Shown piece by piece: positions 2,250 through 34,449 of a stretch of DNA of 34,557 nt (position 1 is the stretch's first letter; every line of letters starts with the position of its first letter). The stretch covers positions 1 to 34,557 of the forward strand of contig DATLUM010000005.1 in NCBI GenBank assembly GCA_035533095.1. Direction: 5' to 3'. This DNA comes from Acidimicrobiales bacterium (GTDB taxonomy: Bacteria; Actinomycetota; Acidimicrobiia; Acidimicrobiales; Palsa-688). The notes under the pieces were generated by a model. That model was not told the DNA's origin and did no database searches. It worked only from the letters and a program-made list of their open reading frames with translations. The translations under genes were made by a program, and so were the position numbers.

Positions 2250-2651
2250 ATGGACCGCCACACCGCCATCCCGACCGCAGACCCCAGGCAGCCGGCCGGC
2301 GGCCGCCTCGTCGACCAGCGCCAGGCCGCCTCGCTCGCCGGGTGCTCCCGAGACACCATCGTCCGGGCCAGGCGTGCCGGGCGTCTCCCGCACTCCCGCC
2401 TCTACGGGCAGCGCTGGCTCATCGCCGTCGACGACCTCGCCGCCGCAGACCTCCTGCGCCCTGAGGGCACCGGCGGCGACACAGCGCCCGAGGCGGGCGC
2501 CGACCATGGCGGCGAGGCGTCGTCGGCAGCCGTGGAACTGGCCCGGGCCGAGGCCCGCCTCGGCGCCCTCCAAGACCTCCTCGCCCGCCAGGACGACGAG
2601 CTTGCCTTCCTTCGCCAGCTCGCCGCCGACCATCTGCGGCGGGCGAGCTGA
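2250..2651 (+). CDS. Small HTH (MerR/excisionase-like) protein with C-terminal coiled coil
   Basis: A 133-residue protein. Residues about 21-65 (VDQRQAASLAGCSRDTIVRA...LYGQRWLIAVDDL) look like the short winged-helix fold of MerR/excisionase proteins. Residues about 93-128 (EARLGALQDLLARQDDELAFLRQL) form heptad-like repeats consistent with a coiled coil. Just before the integrase gene, with a 1-nt stop/start overlap, the likely role is a directionality factor or regulator of the recombinase (inference). The start is uncertain. ATG 2250 is preceded by AAGGAG but with long spacing (about 14 nt). An in-frame GTG at 2115 overlaps the previous stop codon (GTGA) and would add 45 residues, rich in Pro, Gly and Arg, with no recognisable domain. 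Confidence 0.65.
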   Translation: MDRHTAIPTADPRQPAGGRLVDQRQAASLAGCSRDTIVRARRAGRLPHSRLYGQRWLIAVDDLAAADLLRPEGTGGDTAPEAGADHGGEASSAAVELARAEARLGALQDLLARQDDELAFLRQLAADHLRRAS

Positions 2652-5023
2652 TGGGCCGGCCGATCACCGGGTCGCTGCGCCACCACCAGAACCGCTGGTG
2701 GGCGAGCGTCCCCCAACCCGGCGGGGTGGGACGCCGTCGCGAGGAGCCCTTCGCCAGCCAGGCCGACGCCCAGGCGTGGCTGACCCAGGCCGTCGCCGCC
2801 GCCCGGGCCGGCGAGAAGCTCCCCGACCCGGCCCGCTTCCGCACCACCAAGCCGCCTCGGCGAAAGACCCGCCCGACCGAGGCGCCCCGCCTGCAGCCCG
2901 ACGTCGCCTCGCTCGCCCGAGCCTGGATGGCCGCCGCCTACGAGGACCTGCGCCGCGGCGGCCCCGAACGGGCCGAACGCGTCCGGCGGATCGTCGAGGG
3001 CTTCCTCGTCCCGTGGTTCGCCCCCCGCACCGCCACCATCGCGGATGTCACCTACTTCATGGCCCACGAGTGGCTGCTCCACCTCGTCGGGCGCGACCGC
3101 GCCGAGGTGAGCGGCACCCTGCTCGGCCCACCCCCGGTCCCCGGCCCCTACCGCGACGGGGAGGAGCTGAGCTTGGCCGAGGCCGCCCGGGCCGCTGGGG
3201 TGAGCCTGCCGACCGCCCGGCGACGCTGGCGGGCCGGGCAGCTTCCCGGCGCCTACCGCGACCCGACCGGCCAGGTGCGTGTGCCCGCCGCCGCAGCCTT
3301 CGCCATCACCGCCAAGCGCCGGGCGCCCACCGGCCTGTCCCAGGGGTACGTGACCGACGCCCTGTGGGTGCTGCGCCGGATCCTCGCCTTCGCCCGGGCC
3401 AACGGCCTCTTCCCGCCCGGCTTCGACCCCACCGAAGGCCTCGACGCCCCCCTCGCCGACAAGGCCGACCGTCGCCGGCCTGACCGAGGGGGCCAGCCCC
3501 GGCCGCTCACGCTCCCCGAGTGCGCCCGGCTCGCCTCCCACCTCCACCCGGTCCATCAGCTCGCCTTCTGGCTCCAGCGGATCATGGGCCTTCGCATCTC
3601 CGAAGCCTTCGGCGTCCGGGTCGCAGACGTCGTCGACCTCGGCGGCACCGGCCTGCTCGCCGTCCAAGGCCAAGGGGGGAGGAGCTTTGCCGTTCGCGAC
3701 GACCACGGCCAGGTGGTCGCCGTGCCGTACAAGCTGACCACCAAGACCGCGGCGGGATCGCGGGTCCTCGTCATCCCCGAGCAGCTCATGGACCTCGTCC
3801 GGGTCGCCATCGACGCCTTCCACACCGACCCCGACACCGGCCAGGTCGACGCCGCCGCGCGCCTCGTCCCCGGCCTCCAGACCCCTGACCGCTCCGGCCA
3901 GCACGCCTATCGCCACGCCTTCGCCGAAGCCGCTACTGCCGAACAGCTTTCGGGTGACCACCTCGGCTTCGCCGTCTCCACCCACCTGCTGAGAAAGTCC
4001 TGCGCCACCGACCTCGCCTGGGCCGCTGGCATCGAGGACGCCGTGCGGCGCCGCTTCATGGGACACCGCGCCGGCGACGACGTCTTCGGGCGCATCTACA
4101 CCCTCGACCACCCCGACGTCGCCCCCCTCCGAAAGGTCGCCGAGATCCTCGACCACGACATCGCCATGACCATCGGCACCCTCATGGTCCCGACCATCCG
4201 ACACGCCCAGTGGGGGAGCGCCAACCCGCTCTCCGCACGCACCGACCACATCGACGCCACCCTGGCGGCCGCCGGCTGGCTCGTCGACCCCGGCAGCGAC
4301 GACGACCCGCTCTGCGACGCCCAACGCGTCGCTGCCGAGGTCGACATCTACCCGACCACCGCCCGACGGTGGATGACTGACGGCACCCTCCCCACCGTCA
4401 CCATCCCCGACGCCACCGGCGTCTCGCGCCGCTACGCCAAGCTCTCCGACGTCTGGGCCCACCGCGACCGCCTTGCCGGGCGTGTCCTGTTGCCCGACCT
4501 CGCAGAAGAGCTGGGCATCGCCTACCACGAGGCCTACCACGACCTCCGCCGGCTCGGCCTCCCCGTCGAGCAGCACCCCACCAGCCGCCAGTACCACTTG
4601 ACTGCCGAGGCCGCCGACGCACTACGCGCCGAGCACCAGCGCATCCAAGAACTGCACCGCCGCTCGATGAAGCTCGCCGCCGCCGCCCGCCAGTTGGGCG
4701 TCGCCCTTTCCACCGCCGCGCTCCTCTCCCGCACTGGCCAGCTCGAGGTCGACCCCGAGACCGACTCCTCTGGTGCTCGCTTCGTCACCCGCACCTCCGT
4801 GCAACGGTGCTGGCTCGACCGGCATGGGCGCGGTAGGAGAGAGGTCCCAGCGACCGTGCGTCTCGACGAGGTCGTCCGTCTCACTGGCGCGAGTGAGAGG
4901 ACGATCATGGACCTGGTGCGAGCCGGAGTGCTGGAGCAAATGCCGGGCCGGCGCACCTGCGAGATCACGCAGTCAAGCCTTCGGTCGTGGGTGGAGTCGA
5001 CCTGCCCGGGTCCAAGGCCATGA
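2651..5023 (+). CDS. Large tyrosine recombinase (integrase) with several HTH modules
   Basis: A 790-residue site-specific recombinase. The catalytic domain has the tyrosine recombinase residues in order: Arg315 in GLRISEAF, His445 and Arg448 in HLLRKS, His472 in MGHR and the nucleophile Tyr483 in RIYT. The N-terminal third looks like the SAM-like core-binding region, but a MerR-like HTH segment (about 171-218, LAEAARAAGVSLPTARRR) is inserted. After the catalytic tyrosine come some 300 further residues with at least four more HTH-like segments (about 556-585, 614-640, 675-700, 736-768). Typical phage-type integrases are 350-450 residues, so this is nearly double length. It ends the operon. It should catalyse integration and excision of the element; the extra HTHs may bind arm sites. 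No att core was identified. Confidence 0.9.
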   Translation: MGRPITGSLRHHQNRWWASVPQPGGVGRRREEPFASQADAQAWLTQAVAAARAGEKLPDPARFRTTKPPRRKTRPTEAPRLQPDVASLARAWMAAAYEDLRRGGPERAERVRRIVEGFLVPWFAPRTATIADVTYFMAHEWLLHLVGRDRAEVSGTLLGPPPVPGPYRDGEELSLAEAARAAGVSLPTARRRWRAGQLPGAYRDPTGQVRVPAAAAFAITAKRRAPTGLSQGYVTDALWVLRRILAFARANGLFPPGFDPTEGLDAPLADKADRRRPDRGGQPRPLTLPECARLASHLHPVHQLAFWLQRIMGLRISEAFGVRVADVVDLGGTGLLAVQGQGGRSFAVRDDHGQVVAVPYKLTTKTAAGSRVLVIPEQLMDLVRVAIDAFHTDPDTGQVDAAARLVPGLQTPDRSGQHAYRHAFAEAATAEQLSGDHLGFAVSTHLLRKSCATDLAWAAGIEDAVRRRFMGHRAGDDVFGRIYTLDHPDVAPLRKVAEILDHDIAMTIGTLMVPTIRHAQWGSANPLSARTDHIDATLAAAGWLVDPGSDDDPLCDAQRVAAEVDIYPTTARRWMTDGTLPTVTIPDATGVSRRYAKLSDVWAHRDRLAGRVLLPDLAEELGIAYHEAYHDLRRLGLPVEQHPTSRQYHLTAEAADALRAEHQRIQELHRRSMKLAAAARQLGVALSTAALLSRTGQLEVDPETDSSGARFVTRTSVQRCWLDRHGRGRREVPATVRLDEVVRLTGASERTIMDLVRAGVLEQMPGRRTCEITQSSLRSWVESTCPGPRP

Positions 5024-23942: not shown

Positions 23943-24022
23943 GGTGTCTCAATCGACTTCCAGCGGCGGCCACGAGCACGCAGCGAGAAGCGAAACAGCC
24001 GACGAATCACCGGCGTGCCGCG

Positions 24023-24132
24023 CTTCGGATCGCGAACCCGAAGGTGCGTCTTCGTCATGGAGTTTCTCGGGACATCGGCATGTACGGACCAACATTGAGT
24101 AGGGCAACCGCCTAGGCGGCTGCATAGGGCAG
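24023..24132. repeat. Structured non-coding element, copy 1
   Basis: A stretch matching 34098-34205 in the same orientation. It starts with a stem-loop (CTTCGGAT 24023-24030 with ACCCGAAG 24036-24043), continues through GGAGTTTCTCGGGAC and AACATTGAGTAGGGCA, and ends in a near-perfect 20-bp palindrome (24104-24123) followed by CTGCATAGGGCAGGG. Both hairpins are also present in copy 2. It begins 80 nt after the stop codon of the gene at 23076-23942. It could be a structured RNA, a terminator region carried along by duplication, or part of a mobile element end. Confidence 0.6.
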
Positions 24133-24304
24133 GGCTCTGACCAGCGGCTTCCCCCGCCACCATCGAAACGCTGGTCGGTGCGCCTCGTGCATAGGGAACA
24201 GGCGCCTGACAAGCGATTTCGGGTCTAGCCCGAGGTCGAAGATCGGGGTTTCTCGGGGCTTTTTCTCGGGACCTGATCAACTTCGCGCACGCTGCCCTAT
24301 GCAG
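24120..24304. mobile_element. MITE-like 185-bp stretch with 13-bp perfect terminal inverted repeats
   Basis: CTGCATAGGGCAG (24120-24132) and its exact reverse complement CTGCCCTATGCAG (24292-24304) bound 185 bp without an open frame. A further perfect copy of the left end lies at 24369-24381, and 12 of 13 bases recur at 34193-34205. Non-coding DNA between perfect inverted repeats fits a MITE or a deleted IS. No target-site duplication was established, and its left end overlaps structured element copy 1. Confidence 0.4.
24227..24264 (+). terminator. Possible rho-independent terminator
   Basis: AGCCCGAG (24227-24234) can pair with CTCGGGGCT (24252-24260), with one bulged base, across a 17-nt loop, followed directly by a run of T (24260-24264). 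It lies inside the MITE-like stretch downstream of 23942. The loop is long, so this is tentative. Confidence 0.3.
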
Positions 24305-24382
24305 GTGGGCGCGGCGCGTGCGGCCCGTACGCTGCGGATTCGCGATGGGTCGGCGAATCTCCGAGAGGCTGCATAGGGCAGC

Positions 24383-24655
24383 ACGGGTGCACCCCTATGT
24401 GCCTGCACTGATCAGCTGAAACGGGTCATGGAGCTGCGATCTCGGCTGATCCCGTCAGTGAGCGGCGGAGGCTACGGCGATGTCGTAGCTCCTCCTCGTG
24501 CCGGACCGGTTGGTGAGCACCGTCGATCTCAGCCGGGGAGGGGTCCCTCTTCGTGGATCACGTTCCCAGCACCCCGGGGGACACCGACGGCCACGCGTGA
24601 AGAATTCCGATGGCTGTCCGCGGGGAGGGTCAGTGGCCGCCTATGGGGAGGATGA
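24383..24655. other. Non-coding stretch without a recognised gene
   Basis: Between the last CTGCATAGGGCAG copy and the transposase remnant there is no convincing gene. A frame starting at 24428 (75 codons) has no ribosome site and an Arg/Pro/Gly-rich shadow composition. It may be decayed IS sequence, but I cannot match it to anything. Confidence 0.4.
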
Positions 24656-25025
24656 CATGGCCGTTGTCACTCGCGCGGAGAGCCTGCGACAAGGTGATCG
24701 AGCTCTTCGGTGACCTCCTGGCAGCACTGCGTCGTTCCCTCACCTGGGACTCCAGGGCGCCGAGATGCCCGTCATCACGAGGTTACACGGGCCCTTGCCA
24801 TGCCTGACTACCTGTGCCATCCGGGTCGGCCCTGGGAGCGTCCGAGCAACGAGAACACCAACGGTCTGTTGCGCGACTACTTCCCGAAGTCGTCAGATCT
24901 CCGCGTGCACAGCGTTCACGACCCTCGTGTGCGTCGCAGACGAGCTCAACTGCCGACCGCGCAAGACCCTCGCTTGGCGGTCTCCACACCAGCTGTTCAC
25001 TACGCTTCGCTCCGGGTCCGTGTAG
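24656..25025 (+). pseudogene. Decayed IS30-family transposase, C-terminal part
   Basis: Pieces of the C-terminal catalytic region of an IS30-family DDE transposase can be read in order, but in different frames: DKVIELFGDLLAALRRSLTWD (about 24691-24751), then QGAEMPVITR, then DYLCHPGRPWERPSNENTNG and LLRDYFPKSSDLRVHS (about 24803-24910), then CVADELNCRPRKTLAWR to a TAG at 25023-25025. At least three frame changes are needed, and no intact N-terminal half is visible. The NENTNGLLRDYFP and RPRKTL motifs are characteristic of this family. It cannot make a working transposase. It marks past transposition at the junction between the HerA operon and the second GHKL module. Confidence 0.85.
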
Positions 25026-25067
25026 CGACGATCGCTGGAACCCGCCGAGCAGAAGTGGGGAAAGTCG

Positions 25068-25331
25068 GTGAGCGGCATCATGATGGGCGGAACAGCACGA
25101 GAGCAGATCTTGGCGGCGATTGAACGCATCCGACCGAGGTCGGGTGACACGTTTACCATCGCTGAGGTCCTCGACGAGCTGCGATCGCAGGGCAGCAACC
25201 TGGCGGAGAGCACGATCCGGACGCACATCACCTCGCGGATGTGCGGGGACTCGCCGGACCACCACGGCACGACGTACGACGATCTCAAGCGAGTCGACCG
25301 AGGCGTGTACCGGCTGCGCCGAAGCCGGTAG
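25068..25331 (+). CDS. Small winged-helix-like protein coupled to a GHKL-nuclease gene
   Basis: An 87-residue protein beginning at a GTG with GGGGAAAG a few bases upstream; ATG codons at 25080 and 25083 are alternatives that would remove only four or five residues. The sequence ILAAIERI...FTIAEVLDELRSQG...ESTIRTHITSRMC...YDDLKRVDRGVYRL has the helix-helix-recognition helix-wing pattern of a winged helix, and resembles small domains of unknown function found with restriction and defence genes. Its stop is 4 nt before the next start, so the two are surely co-expressed. It could act as the DNA-recognition or regulatory partner of the large ATPase-nuclease. Confidence 0.75.
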   Translation: MSGIMMGGTAREQILAAIERIRPRSGDTFTIAEVLDELRSQGSNLAESTIRTHITSRMCGDSPDHHGTTYDDLKRVDRGVYRLRRSR

Positions 25332-25335
25332 CGGG

Positions 25336-28300
25336 ATGGCAAGCGACGTCATCGATCGGATCGTCGAGCAGAACCTCGGCGTCTACCGGGCGGCGCCGTC
25401 CCGGTTGCAGGAGGACGTCAGTCAGGAGGCCCAGGTAGCGAGCGACTACCGGGGGCGTCTCGTGTATGAGCTGCTCCAGAACGCGGACGACGCGATGGAG
25501 GGGCACGCGACGCAGCGGGATCGCGTCGCGTTTCTCGTCACCGACGACGCGCTGTGGATGGCGAACTCGGGTCGTGCGCTGACTGACCCTGATGTGCAGG
25601 GCCTGTGTGGGCTCGGCGCCAGCTCGAAGGTCGATGCCGCCGGCACGAAACGCGCCTCTATCGGACACAAGGGGCTCGGCTTCAAGAGCGTGCTGGAGAT
25701 CACCGACGCGCCAGCGGTGTTGTCTCGTACCCACTCGTTCCGCCTGGGTGAGCGAGAGGCTCGGCCACACATCGACGCGCTCTGGGATGAGTTCGGGAAC
25801 GCTCGACCGAGGACCGTCCCAGCCATGCGGTTCCCGTCGGCGATCGATGATGCCGACGCTGACCCTCGGTGGCGCGACCTGCGCTCCGACGCGTTCAACA
25901 CGGCCTTCGTCTTCCCGTTCCGATCCGACCTCGAGCCGGACCAGCGGGCCTCGCTCGCGGAGCGCTTGTTGAGTCTCCCTCTGACGACGGTGCTGTTTCT
26001 GAAGCACCTGGAGTCGGTGGTCGTGGAGATCGACCAGGCGGGACGGTCCGAGCGGAGGGAGTGGACGGTCCGGCGTGAGGTCCTCGACGGTGAGCGCTGG
26101 GTTCCCGTACCAGGACTGGGTGGATCAGGTCTGTACCGGGTGACCGCTGCGAGCACGGACCAGGACCAGGCGGCCTTCTACATTGCGCACGACGGCAACG
26201 TCCCGATCGGACCCAACCGCGTCGGACTGAGTGGCCCCGCTTGGGAAGGCGTCGATCTCACCGAGGTGTCCATCGCCGTCCTCGCCGATGGCCCTCCAGA
26301 AGAGATGCCGGAGAGTTGGAGGCACTTCCACGTCTTCCTGCCAACCGAGGAGCGGTGCCCGTACCCGATGTTGGTAAACGGAGCGTTCGCGACGGACCTG
26401 TCCCGTCAGCAGGTCCGAGTCCGATCTGAGCGGGGCGATTACAACTCGCACCTCGTGCGGGAGGCGGCGCGCCTCTTCGTGGACGAGATGCTTCCGGTGC
26501 TTCGGAGCGATGGGCTCGAACGGGTGCTGGCAGTACTCGACCGAGGGGAGGACCCAAGGGACGGTCCCCCCGCCGAGCTGCTGCACAAGTGCCTGGTCGA
26601 TGCGCTCGCCGAGAAGCCGTTGCTGCCGACTGAACTGGGCGATGAGAAGCCATTGGCGGCCTGTGTGCTGCCATCTCCGCTCGTGGAGGCAGAAGGCGAG
26701 CTGTTCCGCACTGTGCTGGGGGAGGTCGCTCGCTGGGGCGAGGCGGATTTCCCCGCTGCGCAGTTCTGCCGCGGGCGCTGGGCCCGGGTCGCGGCTGACC
26801 ACGGAGCCGCACAGTTGACCCCCTCGGAGTGCCTCGCCGTTCTGGGCGCACTCGCCGATCCAGAGTGCTCGGCGATGCGGGAGCACGAGTCCGGCGGATA
26901 CGAGGTCGATCCAGTCCTGGAGCTGAGTGCCCTGCTGTGGGAACGAGCGGACGGCCACGAGCGAGCGATCCTCGAGGGTGATGCCCGCCAGCAGCCGATC
27001 TTCCCGGTCCATCGAAACGATGACGGCAGCGTCGTCCGTGTCGCGCTCGGGGAGGACACCGCCTTCTACCCCCCGCAATCTGCCCGGCAGGACTTCCCGC
27101 TGCGAGGCTTGCGGTTCCTGTGCCACTCGGTCTGCTGGGGGGCGCTGAACAGGAACGAACGCAACGCGATGCTGGGTGAGCAGATGCGGGTGTGGTCGGC
27201 GCTGTTCGACGTCAAGGAGTTCCGCTTCCAGGAGGTCATGCAGGCTTCGGTGCTGCCGGCGCTCGGCCTCAACCCGACGCCCGACGAGCTCTCGTGGCGC
27301 GCCGACCTGCAGAGCAAGGGCTCGCTCGCAGCGATCTGCCAGCTCGCAGGCGCTTTAACCAAGCCCGACCGGCCGCTGCGCTATCAGCGACTGCAGAGCG
27401 ATCGGGCCATCTTCAACTTGAGCCGCCTACCGGTGCCTTGCGTGGCGGATGACGGGACCGAGGAGTGGGTTCCCGCGTACCGCGCCTATTTCGGTCGAGC
27501 GTGGATCGAGGATCGCTCGTTCGAGCACGTGTTGGATGCCTTGTCGGACGGCGACGCGTCGCGCTCCCAGATCGATGCTCGGTTCCTCGTGTCGCCCGAG
27601 TGGTTCCTCGGTCTTCTCGAGTCGCCCGACGAGGCACCGTCCGAGAGCGCGAGCGACGGCGATGACGAGGAGGTCGACCTCGACGAAGATGTCGATCGGG
27701 CCCTCGGGACGACTGAGTTCGAGCGGTGGCTCAACTTCCTGTCGTGGATCGGCGTCAATCGCTCACTTCGGCTCGTTCACTTCCACGACGTCGAGGACCG
27801 CGACACGGGATGGCTGACCACCAAGGAGCTGGAGCAACCCAAGGGCTGGGCCTTCCGCGAGCTGGGCGATACGTGGGCCGCCTACAGGGACGGGCTCGAT
27901 GCGCTGCTCTCCGCTCGACCGGATCATGGCGAGGTCGTGCCGTACCTTTACGAGGTCCACGACCTTGACCATGGCCTCGCGCTGACCGAAGCAGCGGAGC
28001 GTGACGCGTCGTCGGTGGTCGCTGGTCGTCTCTTCGACCACCTCATCCAGCACTGGAGCGCCTTCGCCCCGTTCGCGGACGCGCAGTTGGCGCTCGTTGA
28101 AACCGGCAAATGGCCGAGTTCACGGAGCAAGCCGCAGAAGGCGTTGTCGGAGGAGCTCACCCTCCTCGGTGACAACCTGTGGCTGCACCGGCTGCGGAGG
28201 AGCGGGATCTGCCCGACGTCGCGGGGACCGCGGCGGCCCGAGGTTACGTGGCGGCGGATCCCTGAGATCGAGCGGCGGTTCTCGTCGACTCGTGGCCACC

Positions 28301-30150
28301 GAGACGCGAGTGACCTGATCCCGGTGCTGAAGCAGTCACCCGACCTGCCCGCCAACGCGCTCCGCAGCTTCTGCGAGCGGTTGGGCGTTCGGGGGGAGAT
28401 GAGCCCTTCGACGTTCACCGTCGACGATGCGGATCTCCTGTGTCGACAGCTCGAGGTGCTCTACGCCCAGAATGCCGGCGATCCGGGAGCGCTTCGCCAC
28501 GTCATCAAGCCGGCGTACCGATCGATGTTTGAGCTGTTGAGCGGCCAAGCGAGAGCCGTCGGCACTCCGGTCCTCAAGACCACGCCGTTGCTGGCCGAGA
28601 CGGCCGAGGGCTACCGGTTCCTCGCTGCGGGTGAGGTGCTGTTCGCAGGCACGCCCGGGATCAAGGAACGCAGCGGGCTCGCCGGACGAGTTCCGATCTT
28701 CGTCCTCGAAGCGGAGCCAGCGGCTGAGGCACCGCTCACGTCGATCTTCGGTTGCCGTGTGCTTGAGAATGTCCTCAACTGGCGGCCGGACCCAGGCGAG
28801 TGCTCGCTTGCCCCCGGCGAGCTCCTCGAGATGCGCACCGGGCTCCGTCAACTCGTTGCTCCACTCCTCGCTCGCATCCGGGCCGAGCGGACCAATGCCC
28901 GTGATCGCTCCGACCTCATCGACTTCGTGGAACGGGTCGAACCCGTCGACGACCTCGTGTTGGACTGCACCCTCGACGGGCAAGCACTCGAACGCCAGCC
29001 TGGACGCAACTACTTCGTGCGGCCCCGCGCAGGAACGGCGCAGTTCCAGGGCTTCGTGGTGTGGAACGGTCCAGCGTGGCCACCCGCACCGGACGCCGCA
29101 CAGAGTCTGGCAATGGCCCTCGCCGACACGCTCGGAGTCAACCTCGTAGAGACGTTCCTCGCGTTCATCACCAGCAACGAGCGACAACGTCGGCAGCTCC
29201 TCGACATCGCCGGGGCATCCGGCCACTACCAGGACGTGCTCGACGAGCTGGCGGAGGAGCCAGAGAACGAGACCGAAGGGCAGACACCGGTCGCTGGACC
29301 CACCGCCGCACCCGAGTCCAAGCAGTCACGCAACGAGGGTCGATCGACGCGACCCGATGCCACGCAGCTGGCCGCTCCGCCCGTGCCACTTCACGACTTC
29401 TCATCGCTTCTCCTCGACGGGCAGCCACTCATCGTCACCGGCGACGAGCCCACCGGCGGCGGCCAGGGCGAGGACCGACATCGTGATGGAGCGGGTTCGG
29501 GCACCGGAGCATCTCCGGGCTCCCCGAAGCGCGCCGCAGCCGGAACGGATCTCTCGGCGCTCGACAGGTTGGGCATGCAGATTGCGGTCGCGTACGAAGC
29601 CCGACGACTTGGCCGCGACGGCCGGTCCGTGGCGGTGATCGCGGGTGGGGCCATGCAGGGCGTCGGCGACACCCTCGTCGTGGAGGTCCACACGCCTGCC
29701 GCGATCGCTCGGGCCGAGGAGCTGAGTGACGCCGTCAAGAAGGTGATGAGCCACCTTGGGGCGCGTGGTGTGAGCCGGGTCCATCCGGGCTTCGACCTCC
29801 TCGCCATCCGCGACGGCGAGATTGACCGATTGATCGAGCTGAAGTCGTCCGGTGTTGACGCCCGAGTGCAGGCGATGTCGTGGAATGAGTGGAAGAGCGC
29901 GTCGCACAGCGACCTCCGCCCGATGTTCTGGCTCTACCTCGCCGGCAACCTCAGGGCGGACCTGGAGCACGCCCCGCCGTACCTGCGCGCGATCTGCGAT
30001 CCATTCGGGAGCCTCGTTGGCGAGACGGTGGAGGACCGCCAGGTGCGGCGGGCCGTCCAGTTACGGGTCCGAGAGTTCACAACGGCGGAGCACCTCGATC
30101 TGACGGTTGTCGGACCTTCAGATGGCCAGCTCGTCGGTGCCAGCGGGTGA
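25336..30150 (+). CDS. Second giant GHKL (sacsin-like) ATPase with C-terminal DUF3883-like nuclease
   Basis: A 1604-residue protein starting at the ATG at 25336 (MASDVIDRIVEQNLG). The N-terminal GHKL ATPase is clear: N-box YELLQNADDA (44-53), LWMANSGRALT (73-83) and the lid GHKGLGFKS (110-118), a pattern shared with sacsin-type ATPases. The middle has an acidic stretch (DGDDEEVDLDEDVD, near residue 780). After a low-complexity linker the C-terminus carries a DUF3883-like fold with Asp1487 in GFDLLAI and Glu1501/Lys1503 in IELKSSG, then WNEWKSA and FWLYLAGN. This D-x13-ExK spacing equals that in the protein at 15464-19705. Likely role: nucleotide-gated nuclease acting in defence, paired with the upstream winged-helix protein. 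It differs from the first copy in keeping a conventional second ATP motif region. Confidence 0.82.
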   Translation: MASDVIDRIVEQNLGVYRAAPSRLQEDVSQEAQVASDYRGRLVYELLQNADDAMEGHATQRDRVAFLVTDDALWMANSGRALTDPDVQGLCGLGASSKVDAAGTKRASIGHKGLGFKSVLEITDAPAVLSRTHSFRLGEREARPHIDALWDEFGNARPRTVPAMRFPSAIDDADADPRWRDLRSDAFNTAFVFPFRSDLEPDQRASLAERLLSLPLTTVLFLKHLESVVVEIDQAGRSERREWTVRREVLDGERWVPVPGLGGSGLYRVTAASTDQDQAAFYIAHDGNVPIGPNRVGLSGPAWEGVDLTEVSIAVLADGPPEEMPESWRHFHVFLPTEERCPYPMLVNGAFATDLSRQQVRVRSERGDYNSHLVREAARLFVDEMLPVLRSDGLERVLAVLDRGEDPRDGPPAELLHKCLVDALAEKPLLPTELGDEKPLAACVLPSPLVEAEGELFRTVLGEVARWGEADFPAAQFCRGRWARVAADHGAAQLTPSECLAVLGALADPECSAMREHESGGYEVDPVLELSALLWERADGHERAILEGDARQQPIFPVHRNDDGSVVRVALGEDTAFYPPQSARQDFPLRGLRFLCHSVCWGALNRNERNAMLGEQMRVWSALFDVKEFRFQEVMQASVLPALGLNPTPDELSWRADLQSKGSLAAICQLAGALTKPDRPLRYQRLQSDRAIFNLSRLPVPCVADDGTEEWVPAYRAYFGRAWIEDRSFEHVLDALSDGDASRSQIDARFLVSPEWFLGLLESPDEAPSESASDGDDEEVDLDEDVDRALGTTEFERWLNFLSWIGVNRSLRLVHFHDVEDRDTGWLTTKELEQPKGWAFRELGDTWAAYRDGLDALLSARPDHGEVVPYLYEVHDLDHGLALTEAAERDASSVVAGRLFDHLIQHWSAFAPFADAQLALVETGKWPSSRSKPQKALSEELTLLGDNLWLHRLRRSGICPTSRGPRRPEVTWRRIPEIERRFSSTRGHRDASDLIPVLKQSPDLPANALRSFCERLGVRGEMSPSTFTVDDADLLCRQLEVLYAQNAGDPGALRHVIKPAYRSMFELLSGQARAVGTPVLKTTPLLAETAEGYRFLAAGEVLFAGTPGIKERSGLAGRVPIFVLEAEPAAEAPLTSIFGCRVLENVLNWRPDPGECSLAPGELLEMRTGLRQLVAPLLARIRAERTNARDRSDLIDFVERVEPVDDLVLDCTLDGQALERQPGRNYFVRPRAGTAQFQGFVVWNGPAWPPAPDAAQSLAMALADTLGVNLVETFLAFITSNERQRRQLLDIAGASGHYQDVLDELAEEPENETEGQTPVAGPTAAPESKQSRNEGRSTRPDATQLAAPPVPLHDFSSLLLDGQPLIVTGDEPTGGGQGEDRHRDGAGSGTGASPGSPKRAAAGTDLSALDRLGMQIAVAYEARRLGRDGRSVAVIAGGAMQGVGDTLVVEVHTPAAIARAEELSDAVKKVMSHLGARGVSRVHPGFDLLAIRDGEIDRLIELKSSGVDARVQAMSWNEWKSASHSDLRPMFWLYLAGNLRADLEHAPPYLRAICDPFGSLVGETVEDRQVRRAVQLRVREFTTAEHLDLTVVGPSDGQLVGASG

Positions 30151-30280
30151 GCTCACATCCGAAGGCTAGCTACAGCTAGGCGCAACAGCTCGACGACCTG
30201 GCGGGGCTACCTCCCCCGGGTGAGCTTCGTTCAACCCAGGCTGGCTCGCAACCCCCCCGATGCAGGGCTCGGGTGAGAAT

Positions 30281-30859
30281 TCACTCGGTGATCTGGCGGA
30301 GCTGTCGCTTGTCGGTGTCGCTGCTGGGGACCTGGATACAGAGCGTGAGCGACGGTTGGGGATGCGACGGTGAGCTCGGTGACGTCGAAGCGGATGATCC
30401 CGACTGGCGGTCGGCGGATGGCGATCTGGCCGGTGACGGCTTTCTCGACTCGGTTGTCGGCCCGTCGGGCGGCGAATCGCTGGCTTTCGTTCGTCAGTGC
30501 CTCGACGAGTTCTGCGAATCGCTCGTCTGCGGGATGCTCGGCTGCGGCGGAGCGGAACTGGCCGAGGACGCGGCGACGAGAAACACCGCCGCGGCCACGA
30601 TGAAGCCCACCAGTGGCTTCTCCAACGTATGCTCCGCGCTCGCCAGTTGCCTGCTGACGATCGGGGGAAGGACGAGGACGAGCCCAGTGAAGACGAGCGA
30701 CAGCAACGCCGTCAGCACCCGGCTCAGCGTCTGATCGTTCACCGTAGGATCAGGACTCGGCTTGTTCTGACCTTCGGACGAATTCGGGCCGCCCTGGCTC
30801 TCTATGCTCGCAGTCTCGCGCCCAGAGGAAGCGCGAACAGCCTGTGCAGGTAGGTACAC
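30281..30859 (-). pseudogene. Broken gene for a small membrane protein (two frame changes)
   Basis: Reading leftwards from a GTG at 30859, the frame encodes two membrane segments (VLTALLSLVFTGLVLVLPPI and LVGFIVAAAVFLVA) and stops at 30494. From about 30570 the neighbouring frame carries a convincing continuation, FAELVEALTNESQRFAARRA then VGIIRFDVTELTVASPTV. Near 30330 the first frame resumes (CIQVPSSDTDKRQLRQITE) to a TGA at 30281-30283. Each piece has high-GC third positions only in the frame named. The intact ancestor would be about 190 residues: two transmembrane helices and a cytoplasmic tail. Function unknown. Either the gene is dead or the sequence holds two indel errors. Confidence 0.5.
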
Positions 30860-31116
30860 CGTCGCGCGCCGCCATGGACCTTTCCCCAGCCGTGCGCGAG
30901 CCTTCGTCGCCGCCTTCCGTCAAGCGGTGGGCGACGCTCATCGGTGTGCGCGGTACCCACCACCTGCCCGGACACACGGCGGTGCTTGGAGCCCTCGCCG
31001 ATCACGACTCCTGAAGGTGCGCTGGCGGCGGTCCGGCGTGTCAGCCTTCTCATGTGGCTCCGAAACCGGTCGAACCGGGACGTCAGAAATCGGACCTGGC
31101 GCGACAGATAGTGAGT

Positions 31117-31833
31117 ATGAGGGCCGATCCGGCTGCCGCTGGGGAGATGACGCCACCGGCAGGTGGCTCGACCGCAGCGGTCGGCGGGCTGGCCACGGCG
31201 CAGCTGGTTGACGAGGTTGTCCGGACTGGGTATGCCGGCCCGGCCTGGGGGGAGCTGGCGCGACGCCTGGTCAGCCGGGCCTTGCCGGACCTGGAGTCCG
31301 CCATCCGCACGGGAGCGATCTACCGACGGTGTGCCAGAGCCGGAGTGTCTATCCGGAGGAGGCCAGTGCTCCAGGGCGCATCTCACGCCCAAGACATCGC
31401 GGCAGAGGCCGTCGAGGACTGCCTGGACCGGTTCCGAACGCGCGTCTTACCCGAGGGTCGGTGGGATCCGGAACAGGGCACGAGCCTCGAGGACTACTTC
31501 TCTGCGTGCTGCCTTCCTGATGTGGCCAACCGCTGGCGTTGGCACCTCCGGCGTCTCCCGGAGGTCGTGATCCCGCTCGACGGCGCCGGTGAGGGAGCGG
31601 TCGTGTCCTTGCCGGTCGATCCTGGGCCTGGACCGGCGGAGATCACCGAGGAGAAGGCCGTCGTCGCTGAGGCGCTGGCGCCGATGGTCGGACGGGATCA
31701 GGCCGCCTTCGTCATGCTTGCGGCCGGCTGGACCCCACAGGAGATCGCTCGAGCGCTTGGTGTGGCCCGCAACACGCTGGACGCCCGGATCAGCCGGGCA
31801 CGCAAGGCAGCACGCGCAAGGAGGAACCCGTGA
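31117..31833 (+). CDS. RNA polymerase sigma-70-like factor coupled to a KAP NTPase
   Basis: A 238-residue protein from the ATG at 31117 (an in-frame GTG at 31054 would add 21 residues). The region around residues 90-145 (DIAAEAVEDCLDRFRTRVL...LEDYFSACCLPDVANRWRW) resembles sigma region 2. Residues about 185-232 form a region 4 helix-turn-helix (VGRDQAAFVMLAAGWTPQEI, then ARALGVARNTLDARISRARK). The linker is long and Pro/Gly-rich. Its stop overlaps the KAP NTPase start by 4 nt (GTGA), so both are made together. It may direct transcription of its own operon or be a sigma-derived DNA-binding subunit; no anti-sigma gene is visible, unless the KAP protein acts as one. Confidence 0.75.
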   Translation: MRADPAAAGEMTPPAGGSTAAVGGLATAQLVDEVVRTGYAGPAWGELARRLVSRALPDLESAIRTGAIYRRCARAGVSIRRRPVLQGASHAQDIAAEAVEDCLDRFRTRVLPEGRWDPEQGTSLEDYFSACCLPDVANRWRWHLRRLPEVVIPLDGAGEGAVVSLPVDPGPGPAEITEEKAVVAEALAPMVGRDQAAFVMLAAGWTPQEIARALGVARNTLDARISRARKAARARRNP

Positions 31834-34076
31834 GCGACAGTGAGGAGACCGTCAGCATCGAAGACGAAGTAATGGAGCAGGGGGACGCGCCGATCGGTGC
31901 CCTCGCAGGGGACCGCCTCGGCCGCCGCCCCTTCGCAGAGGCCCTGGCTGCCGAGATCCTGGCGGCTCCGGCCGCCCGTGGCTACGTGATGGGGCTGACT
32001 GGAGCGTGGGGCAGCGGCAAGACCTCCATCCTCAACATGACCGTCGACGCCCTCGGGGATCAGGCCATCGTTGTTCAGTTCAACCCGTGGATGTTCTCTG
32101 GGACCGAGGCACTCGTCAGTTCGTTCTTCGACGAGGTGGGCAAGCAACTCGACAGGCGGGACTCGGCCATCAAGGCCATCGCCGAGAAGCTGGCGAAGTA
32201 TGGACGCCTGCTCTCTCCGCTCGCCTCGTTCGTCGGAGCGGGCTCCGCGGTCAACGCTGCAGCGGACATCATCGGCGACTTCGCCAGCCAACCATCGGTG
32301 TTCCAGCAGCGCCAAGAACTCCGCGCCCTATTGGAGGCACTGGATCGACGACTGGTCGTGATCGTCGACGACGTCGACCGGCTCCGGCCCGAGGAGGTGC
32401 TGGACATGGTCCGGCTGGTACGTCTCGTGGGCGACTTCCCCAACACGCTGTACCTGCTGGCGTTCGATCGAGGTCGGGTCGAGGAGTGCCTTGGCGAGGG
32501 CAGCCCGGAGCGTGGTCGTGCCTACCTGGAGAAGATTGTTCAGGTCACCCATGACGTGCCCGCGGCGCGCCAGCCCGACGTCACGTCCATCTTCCTCGCC
32601 GGTCTGCAGCGACTGGTCGACACCGTCCCGACGGGCCCACTCGACGCCGGCGACTGGCAGAACATCTTTGCCTTCGTCGTTCGGCCACTGCTGGCGACGC
32701 CGAGGAGCGTGCGGCGGCTGCTCGGCTCGCTCTCGATGACGATGCGGCTGGTCGGCGACGAGGTGGCACTCGCCGACCTCATCGGTATCGAGGCGGTCCG
32801 AGTGCTCCAGCCGGCAATGTTCGATGCGGTGATCTCCGTAGTCGAGAACCTCTCCGCGCAGGCCACCACCGTCGGCCAGACCGGGTACCAGCACGGCCGG
32901 GACCCGTTGGAGACGCCCGTCGCGCCACTGTTCGGGGTCGATCCGTTGCTCGCGTCCGCCATCTGCCAGTGGCTGTTCCCCGGTGCTCGCCGCTACGTCG
33001 AGAACATGCACTACGGGCCGGAGTGGGAGGTGACCTGGAGGCGGCATCGAAAGATCGCCAGCTCAACCGTGTTCCGCTTCTACCTGGAGAGGCAACTCCC
33101 CGACGGCGTATTGCCCGCCAGGCTGGTGGAAGAGGCGCTGGAGCGCTTGACGGACAGAGACCGGTTGCAGGAGCTGCTCGACGCCCTCTCACCGGCTGAG
33201 CTGATGGACCTCATCGAGCGGATGAACGCGAGCCTCGAAGAGCTCCCAGTATTTGCCGACGAGCTAGATGGGGATCCAGCGCGCGTGGCGCTTCCTGTCC
33301 TGCTCGATCTCCTCCCTCGGCTGCCCGAGGAAACCGGGATGCTGACCTTCAGCGGATCCATGGTCATCATTCGGGCAGCTCTGCGGCTGCTCAAGCGGCT
33401 TCCGACCGACGAGGCGCGAGCCGAGCTCATTCGAGGGGTCTTGGGCGAGACGCGGTCGCTGAGCGCGCGCCTGATCTTGGTACTGGTGGCGGGCCACCGG
33501 AAGGACATCGGCGCCGAACTCGTCACCGCTGACATCGCCACGGCGCTGGAGGGCGAGCTGCGCCAGAGTCTCATCGAGCTATCCCCGGCCGCGTTCGCCG
33601 CCGCAACCCGGACGGTGCGCCTGGCAGATCTCCTCGCGGAGAGCGAGGAAGGACGGAGAGCGCTGCACGAGCTCGCCGAGGACAACCGAGTGATGTTGTC
33701 GCTGTTCGTCGACTCCATGGGTGAGATCCGAGCCCGGTCCATGGGAGCGGCGGCGGTCGAACGGACCAAGACGCTCGCCTGGGACCACCTGGCCACTTAC
33801 TTCGGGGAGGAGATGCTTGTCCGGCGGACTGCCGAGTTGATGCAGGCGATCATGGACGACGGAATGGAGGTCTCGGCTCAGGAGCGGGCGGCGGTGTCGC
33901 TCGCCGCCGACTACGCCACCGGCAACCGACCGGAAACCTCGTACGAGCGGATGATGCGCACCGCGTCGAACAGCCCACCAGAGAAGCCGGCCACGGCAGA
34001 CGACGGGGACGATGAGAGTATCGAGCCGGAAGACACGCAGGTGCCCGCGAAGCACCCCATCGAGGACGAGGAGTAG
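31830..34076 (+). CDS. KAP-family P-loop NTPase
   Basis: A 748-residue protein starting at the GTG overlapping the sigma-like stop. KAP signatures are clear: Walker A GAWGSGKTS (58-66), the FNPWMFSG motif (84-91) and Walker B VVIVDDVDRL with Asp180-Asp181. Many KAP NTPases carry a transmembrane hairpin between the Walker motifs; here the matching region (about 126-152, PLASFVGAGSAVNAAADIIG) is only weakly hydrophobic, so the protein may be soluble or peripheral. The C-terminal half is helical and Leu/Glu-rich, ending in an acidic tail. KAP NTPases occur in bacterial anti-phage systems, and I infer such a role here. Structured element copy 2 begins 22 nt after its stop. Confidence 0.85.
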   Translation: MSDSEETVSIEDEVMEQGDAPIGALAGDRLGRRPFAEALAAEILAAPAARGYVMGLTGAWGSGKTSILNMTVDALGDQAIVVQFNPWMFSGTEALVSSFFDEVGKQLDRRDSAIKAIAEKLAKYGRLLSPLASFVGAGSAVNAAADIIGDFASQPSVFQQRQELRALLEALDRRLVVIVDDVDRLRPEEVLDMVRLVRLVGDFPNTLYLLAFDRGRVEECLGEGSPERGRAYLEKIVQVTHDVPAARQPDVTSIFLAGLQRLVDTVPTGPLDAGDWQNIFAFVVRPLLATPRSVRRLLGSLSMTMRLVGDEVALADLIGIEAVRVLQPAMFDAVISVVENLSAQATTVGQTGYQHGRDPLETPVAPLFGVDPLLASAICQWLFPGARRYVENMHYGPEWEVTWRRHRKIASSTVFRFYLERQLPDGVLPARLVEEALERLTDRDRLQELLDALSPAELMDLIERMNASLEELPVFADELDGDPARVALPVLLDLLPRLPEETGMLTFSGSMVIIRAALRLLKRLPTDEARAELIRGVLGETRSLSARLILVLVAGHRKDIGAELVTADIATALEGELRQSLIELSPAAFAAATRTVRLADLLAESEEGRRALHELAEDNRVMLSLFVDSMGEIRARSMGAAAVERTKTLAWDHLATYFGEEMLVRRTAELMQAIMDDGMEVSAQERAAVSLAADYATGNRPETSYERMMRTASNSPPEKPATADDGDDESIEPEDTQVPAKHPIEDEE

Positions 34077-34097
34077 GTAGCTGATGTGGCGGCGGCT

Positions 34098-34205
34098 CTT
34101 CGGGTCCTGAACCCGAAGGTGCAGCCGACCGTGGAGTTTCTCGGGACCGGACCGGTCGGGACCGACATTGAGTAGGGCAGCCGCCCGGGCGGCTGCATAG
34201 GACAG
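34098..34205. repeat. Structured non-coding element, copy 2
   Basis: Direct copy of 24023-24132. The first hairpin is perfect here (CTTCGGGT 34098-34105, loop CCTGA, ACCCGAAG 34111-34118). The middle shares GTGGAGTTTCTCGGGACC and GACATTGAGTAGGGCA, and 34177-34196 is a perfect 20-bp palindrome followed by CTGCATAGGACAGGG. Differences from copy 1 keep base pairing at two positions of the palindrome. It directly follows the KAP gene, where it may also end transcription, although no T-run follows the first stem. Confidence 0.6.
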
Positions 34206-34449
34206 GGCGTTGACCAGCGGGTTCGTCGGGTTTGAGGCCCGAAGTCGCTCGATGGTCGTGAACCCCCGCCACTTCGAGGCCTTCACGTTTCCGGGCGCTG
34301 TCATCCTGCCTCGGCGTGTGACGCGCCGTCGCCGCTCGCAGATTGGGCTCGCGCAGGCGAAGGCCTCGCTTGCTCCGCCGTGCGAGCGCCAGGGGTGGAG
34401 CGGCGCCACGTTTCCGCGGAACGGGGTGGTCGGTTAGCTCCTCCTGCCC
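34206..34449. other. Non-coding stretch without a recognised gene
   Basis: After element copy 2 there is no supportable gene. A plus frame at 34210-34437 has no ribosome site and reads as Arg/Pro/Ser-rich shadow; on the minus strand a segment reading KASKWRGFTTIERLRAS looks faintly protein-like but runs into the repeat. It could be decayed mobile DNA. Confidence 0.35.

Follow-up and report, generated by a model that had tools for sequence, protein, structure and literature searches.

Paired repeats bounding a 10-kb GHKL/KAP module in an Acidimicrobiales contig as probable attachment junctions related to tRNA-Met(CAT)

The window analyzed here (34,557 nucleotides) is the whole of contig C5 of an Acidimicrobiales genome (GCA_035533095.1, contig DATLUM010000005.1; G000 in our numbering, in which G, C and L denote genomes, contigs and loci). 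It carries two direct repeats on either side of a module of about 10 kb that encodes a GHKL ATPase and a KAP NTPase. The initial annotation placed the repeats at 24023–24132 and 34098–34205; both copies are present, but their true extent is longer (24017–24162 and 34092–34273), and the differences between their palindromes are as it gave them. A repeat search aligned 24086–24151 with 34159–34224 at 88% and 24017–24047 with 34092–34122 at 84%, and when copy 1 was compared with its own genome by blastn, copy 2 was the sole other match (80% identity over ~135 bp, E 4.8e-26). From their sequences, the two repeats are most likely attachment (att) junctions of integrative elements that form a stack at a tRNA-Met(CAT) gene, or a stack derived from such a gene.

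Aligned copies share one order. A hairpin that some copies lack comes first, then GTTTCTCGGGA, TTGAGTAGGGCA, the palindrome, TGCATAGGGCAG and CTGACCAGCGG, and last the second hairpin with AACCCCCGCCACCA. This whole stretch is here called the P arm plus core, and the right part, of ~250 bp, the P' arm. In general form the P arm consists of TTTCTCGGG, TTGAGTAGGGCA, palindrome and TGCATAGGGCA, and the P' arm, found after many copies, adds TTTCTCGGG twice, has further repeats resembling TGCATAGGGCA and ends near TGCACTGATCAAC; TTGAGTAGGGCA and an inverse-like TGCCCTGATCAA occupy the two outer sides. In the window, where all features described lie on the forward strand, copy 1 comprises hairpin H (24017–24047, CTTCGG...CCCGAAG, resembling a tRNA anticodon stem by eye), the P arm (24062–24136: GTTTCTCGGGA, TTGAGTAGGGCA, the palindrome CCGCCTAGGCGG and TGCATAGGGCAG), a core remnant (24137–24162) in which, by alignment, the tRNA-Met-like stem is deleted, and a P' arm (24163–24414) with two TTTCTCGGG, GATCAA and TGCATAGGGCAG repeats. 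The nhmmer model of P matches 24062–24151 through its positions 1–90 (E 3.5e-21), and that of P', termed Q, matches 24168–24414 through positions 4–251 (E 1.6e-31). Copy 2 comprises hairpin H (34092–34122), the P arm (34136–34212) and a core (34213–34273) in the form of a degenerate tRNA-Met(CAT) 3' half ending in ACCCCCGCCACT, with model P matching 34136–34273 through positions 1–140 (E 1e-34). The copies are thus not equivalent: copy 2 keeps the second hairpin and ACCCCCGCCACT, most of which copy 1 lacks, and copy 1 alone continues into the ~250-bp arm. Copy 2 is followed by an arm-like sequence of a different family (34274–34340, TTCACGTTT type), probably the start of a next element; similar sequences stand behind a tRNA-Val gene (L150) and behind a tRNA-Gly-like 3' end at a contig start (L148).

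The module itself (24163–34273), delimited by matches to Q and P that face the same way, runs from P' arm through cargo to P arm plus core. Its cargo includes a sacsin-like, TmtA-like GHKL ATPase protein (25336–30150, in a frame open from 25120; PF25794 E 1.3e-10, PADLOC TmtA E 5.6e-60, NF047352 over cut-off), a sigma-70 region-4-like protein (31054–31833; PF08281 E 1.3e-7) and a PifA/QatA-like KAP P-loop NTPase (31830–34076; PF07693 E 1.7e-44, PADLOC PifA E 3e-78), the score of which lies far below the NCBIfam QatA cut-off. No integrase gene was recognised in the five open reading frames of the module that were scanned.

The second hairpin and CCGCCACCA together constitute a degenerate copy of the tRNA-Met 3' half. 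The reference set comprised 31 tRNA genes, taken at 30 of the 46 tRNA places of G062, a complete genome in a single contig of 2,158,157 bp. For each of 30 cores (from 33 aligned copies, window copy 1, L048 and L050 having been dropped by a 3'-end filter), the core of window copy 2 among them, tRNA-Met(CAT) was the best match among the 31, and it remained so when the final 16 nt were cut off (mean 8.3, against -3.0 averaged over tRNAs, standard deviation 2.5). The profile of P plus core in turn matches eight of ten intact tRNA-Met genes (E 7e-4 to 0.03) and also the one in L132; the other matches of the P model at E <= 0.1 in 23 loci are a tRNA-like copy in L126 and a weak one in L141. In P-type cores the anticodon stem and the 3' end are almost all that is left of the tRNA, and nearly faithful tRNA-Met 3' copies occur at L041 (45 nt) and L126. 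An unpaired first base and an anticodon stem with three G-C pairs, both hallmarks of initiator tRNA, suggest that this tRNA is the initiator.

The position of the P' arm points to the same gene. ARAGORN places a tRNA-Met(cat) directly 5' of P' in 11 loci, and P' begins at one and the same point, give or take a few bases, behind P cores and tRNA genes alike. A total of 53 P' matches reached E <= 1e-5; setting aside 17 whose start is diverged or missing, we considered 36: 17 abut a P core, tRNA-Met is the best upstream tRNA match for 33 (as it is for 97 of 1000 random 61-mers), and 27 of the upstream stretches score at or above the 99th percentile of those random sequences. In three sets of toxin-antitoxin cassettes, the same cassette and P arm are followed by different right sides, with the switch at the core end. 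Taken together, these features match the behavior of att junctions between stacked integrated elements. Since P' stands both behind P cores and behind intact tRNA-Met, the 10-kb module is taken to be a discrete integrated element. Where an upstream gene lies within 400 bp (28 cases), it points toward the site in 26; nine more cases have no such gene.

Ten further P'...P units were found, each on one contig, spanning 1.9–59 kb: L038 (3.4 kb), L049 (2.7 kb), L051 (1.9 kb), L059 (4.0 kb), L041 (7.2 kb), L135 (5.1 kb), L035 (4.0 kb), L076 (4.5 kb), G039:C77 (12 kb) and G018:C44 (59 kb, junctions at ~230.3 and 289.4 kb). Protein families encoded within units, or immediately ahead of P arms, include PIN, ParE/Phd, BrnT, HigBA-like, GNAT, Arr, ChrB (in L033, where it precedes P outside any bounded unit), cation efflux, TetR, ABC, SDR, epimerase and ECF sigma. 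No site-specific recombinase family was present among 26 of the ~53 genes called in nine units (gene calls by our codon-score script). The 59-kb unit of G018, outside this set, contains a homolog of the 790-residue recombinase discussed below. Ten neighbors of P' arms, scanned for a recombinase, included none; they encode tRNA synthetases (two), DUF5677, insertion sequence (IS) transposases (three), an amidohydrolase, an M78 peptidase, SSB and a protein without match. In L126 and L134, from genomes of two different families, a synthetase gene of TrpRS/TyrRS type lies 238 bp past the P' arm and is possibly cargo.

By sequence, a full junction comprises a P arm, a degenerate tRNA-Met 3' half and a P' arm, with the tRNA 3' end as the switch point; P and core would belong to the element on the left and P' to that on the right. 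Copy 1, made up of a P arm, a damaged core and P', then reads as the seam between a MADS-like element on its left and the 10-kb GHKL/KAP element; copy 2, a P arm and core, reads as the right end of the latter, adjoining another arm type. A tyrosine recombinase may bind the tRNA-like dyad together with the repeated sites in the arms, exchanging strands near the end of CCGCCACCA and leaving the tRNA intact; elements without an enzyme would be moved in trans or along with a neighbor. The arms, with their repeated motifs and dyads, are probably a protein-binding element, one of the options named in the initial annotation.

Pairing was assessed in the 33 aligned sequences over three helices, against 500 shuffles and column slides. 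Standard pairs filled 87.2% of cells, compared with 84.9% in shuffles. Two-sided cells numbered 13 versus 2.8 in shuffles, and the covariation score was 0.112 versus 0.075; neither value was reached in any of the 500 shuffles. Five pairs showed two-sided change (2.4 in shuffles, 20/500 as high), a count that a slide of -3 columns also yields, and there were 18 further pair types (16.1 in shuffles, 60/500 as high). The true register surpassed all slides in paired cells and covariation score. Counts of this kind are inflated by relatedness among the sequences. Four of the five two-sided pairs sit in the palindrome, where, of the nine pairs, two often fail to form (in 20 and 9 cells); loss of pairing in additional copies, which the initial annotation had named as evidence against its reading, was not seen, the palindrome pairing being mostly, not fully, kept. 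These data lend moderate support to preservation of the dyads, and pairing does not tell DNA from RNA.

Three other explanations deserve weighing. The P' arm could be the native flank of tRNA-Met, such that tRNA plus right part is an empty site and P plus core plus right part a simple right-hand att site, as would be allowed by its presence behind intact tRNA-Met in 11 loci, in most of which it starts where the tRNA ends. A native flank would hardly occur at six places in G016 and five in G031 or fall into several sequence types; at E <= 1e-3 it was not found in 157 of 198 genomes (few candidates being scored per genome), and in our own genome tRNA-Met precedes a different arm. We regard this explanation as improbable. 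Quite improbable, too, is a conserved non-coding RNA or 3'-untranslated-region terminator downstream of genes. It would fit hairpins with some two-sided changes and the predominant orientation of upstream genes; however, the window yielded no Rfam match at gathering score, the second hairpin is what decay has left of a tRNA-Met anticodon stem, copies of one cassette change their right side at a fixed point, and P' also stands behind intact tRNA genes. On the first three of these counts the structured RNA offered by the initial annotation is not supported; its moved cassette between direct repeats is the option that the evidence favors, given that the repeats resemble att junctions bounding a discrete element.

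Least of all do the repeats appear to be the ends of a transposon or IS, a reading that we consider highly improbable. They are dispersed and multi-copy, with TTGAGTAGGGCA and the inverse-like TGCCCTGATCAA on the outer sides, and IS3-type transposase genes occur in or near some units; yet no transposase family is common to the units among 50 neighbor or unit proteins scanned, the position is fixed at the tRNA 3' end, and at one copy a separate IS-like repeat has its own end. The finding that would have undone the initial annotation, a known IS end as the sole context of the element, did not emerge, no shared IS or transposase being seen beside the copies scanned.

Several observations nevertheless weigh against att junctions at tRNA-Met. 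Ten of the 33 best matches to tRNA-Met upstream of P' are trivial, being tRNA genes themselves, which leaves 23 of 26; nine of the 36 upstream stretches fall below the random 99th percentile, those of L053, L054 and L060 match another tRNA best, and the P' match in L132 begins 44 nt past the tRNA. Window copy 1, one of the nine, has lost most of its core: tRNA-Met is still the best match of the remnant, weakly so (11.0 versus 9.0; random 99th percentile 15). A looser list adds another oppositely oriented upstream gene (L054). Several unit ends are matched only in part; in the 59-kb G018 unit the right P arm scores weakly (E 0.08), yet it can be read by eye. No contig holds an intact tRNA-Met, P' arm, cargo and P arm together; the nearest is L041, with its 45-nt tRNA-Met-like copy ahead of the P' arm. 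Over ~70 kb beyond P' of G062, and on the other tRNA-Met contigs, P arms were not found. The search for an empty site, tried with the right flanks of the window and of L076, found none; the former flank was ruled out as another arm family and the latter as an IS-like repeat. The window's own genome has its tRNA-Met on C27, where a different arm type follows it and nothing links it to the window contig, in which no tRNA gene was found. Finally, many genomes carry sites without the recombinase considered next, and the recombinase assignment is weak.

Turning to the enzyme, a candidate lies to the left of copy 1: MADS-like island gene 2651–5023 encodes a 790-residue tyrosine recombinase with extra helix-turn-helix domains (PF00589 E 8.7e-5, below cut-off), in which R315, H445, R448, H472 and Y483 are invariant across nine of nine aligned proteins. 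We assign it only tentatively as the mobilizer, a role that it may well not have. P is carried by 8 of 12 recombinase-positive and 5 of 49 recombinase-negative genomes (p 1.5e-4), and within the family by 7 of 10 and 5 of 22 (p 0.018), counts made by hand after removal from the P-positives of G010, whose 33-bp match looked like chance in coding sequence. Because this association is lost within the family when P' replaces P (7 of 10 versus 11 of 22, p 0.45), it is not robust. As a query, the 790-residue protein found only itself and a fragment in L137 among the loci searched. A home-made integrase profile gave matches on site contigs only in L036, L040 and L055; it misses the 790-residue protein and is therefore not exhaustive. 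In seven other loci (L187, L188, L190, L191, L194, L198 and L203), the recombinase gene recurs in a block, preceded by two methyltransferase genes and a small gene; no match to the genes that follow the block in the window was seen in L187, L190 and L191. In L195 the recombinase accompanies Vsr- and C5-methyltransferase-like matches. A 45%-identical recombinase gene starts 755 bp past a tRNA-Ala, which is followed by two TTATCGGGA repeats. Clusters of adjacent tyrosine recombinase matches occur at G000:C18, G000:C98 and G039:C74, resembling recombinase-in-trio elements.

Across the comparison set, repeat matches occurred in 22 of 198 genomes, our own included, at E <= 1e-3, of which at least four (G010, G080, G098 and G151) look like chance by eye, being short; P' alone was found in 41 of 198, again with our own and at the same threshold, and in many loci it stands behind a tRNA gene. 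Copies are undercounted because at most four candidates (repeat) or three (P') were scored per genome, so that copy numbers are lower bounds; some loci, moreover, are near-duplicates (L034 and L082, 99.7%). An exact-pattern scan of named genomes returned 24 stretches, 22 of them from metagenome-assembled genomes labeled 'Actinomycetes bacterium' and two, from Leptolyngbya and Pygmaiobacter, that look like chance. Copy 2 had no match in plasmid and phage collections, and the exact repeat pattern was not found in viral contigs.

The nearest precedents are tandem islands at tRNA or transfer-messenger RNA genes (tDNA and tmRNA islands) and cis-mobilizable elements; what is new here is a tRNA mimic that is degenerate and units that are small and lack an enzyme. 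The closest precedent found is the stack of ssrA islands in Dehalococcoides, of which 16 have an integration module and 15 do not, the latter being discussed as possible cis-mobilizable elements (PMC3146451). Those islands likewise stack behind one small-RNA gene with direct repeats of its 3' end between them; they differ in having a 20-bp ssrA repeat and a proposed Ccr-like integrase of serine type (PMC3146451), in contrast to the degenerate tRNA-Met half, long arms and candidate enzyme found here. Cis-mobilizable elements and accretion, as defined there (PMC3146451), share att-flanked cargo, the absence of recognised integration or transfer genes and an adjoining element. The 10-kb module has this form, with Q at 24168, P at 34136 and, judged by protein families only, no integration or conjugation genes. 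Units here are unlike such elements in extending down to 1.9 kb. Islander tDNA islands have their boundary at the 3' end of a tRNA gene that is kept intact, as the family described here does in the 11 loci with P' directly behind tRNA-Met(cat), although the window contig itself shows no tRNA; in such islands a displaced tRNA fragment is expected at the far end (PMC4383910), and the P-type cores are degenerate, though all 30 tested match tRNA-Met best, with near-faithful copies at L041 and L126. In the literature on Acidimicrobiales or Acidimicrobium, integrase-less arrays, tycheposons, accretion and attC-like non-integron cassettes, so far as it was covered, no published account of such a system was found.

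Integron gene cassettes are small units whose gene has a structured recombination site behind it, gene and site facing the same way, and which carry no enzyme. The units described here are similarly small and enzyme-less, with the site behind the gene and GNAT, Arr and toxin-antitoxin cargo; unlike integrons, they have a site that resembles tRNA, and no integron integrase (TIGR02249) scored over cut-off in any of ten genomes. Speculatively, the system might be an integron-like gene capture on initiator tRNA, in which enzyme-less cassettes with a tRNA-Met-mimicking site are collected behind tRNA-Met by the 790-residue recombinase acting in trans, although we hold this to be unlikely. It is likewise doubtful that, under such capture, cassettes are often closed by a toxin-antitoxin pair beside the P arm and the recombinase travels with a methyltransferase defence module. 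If cassettes were moved in trans, this would be a tRNA-based counterpart of integron function. If the att-junction reading holds, entire defence systems, along with small genes of the toxin-antitoxin or resistance type, would be shuffled as units in this Actinomycetota group, and the P and P' arm models would locate island boundaries without a faithful tRNA fragment.

Left of copy 1, window 351–23942 is occupied by the large MADS-like defence island, which encodes two paralogous methyltransferase-like proteins, the tyrosine recombinase, Vsr, a C5 methyltransferase, a HerA-like ATPase and a helicase, with partial PADLOC matches to mad1, mad2 and mad8. At the opposite end, window 34417–34557 matches a coding-looking stretch in G039:C49 at 77% and, by eye, is what we take to be the end of an IS1595-like transposase gene. 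At L038:21–201 the junction is shorter, apparently through recombination between two TGCATAGGGCA-like repeats. In L152 (G000:C27:1–1156), the genome's own tRNA-Met is followed by the other arm type, with two TTCTACCGG repeats, and the gene behind that arm reads by eye like a type I restriction subunit. Further arm families stand behind other tRNAs or cores in L148, L150, L055 and L201, with paired direct repeats TTCACGTTT, TCTACCAAA and GTGTCAAACCT, and some of them show a GGTCAG motif beside the tRNA end.

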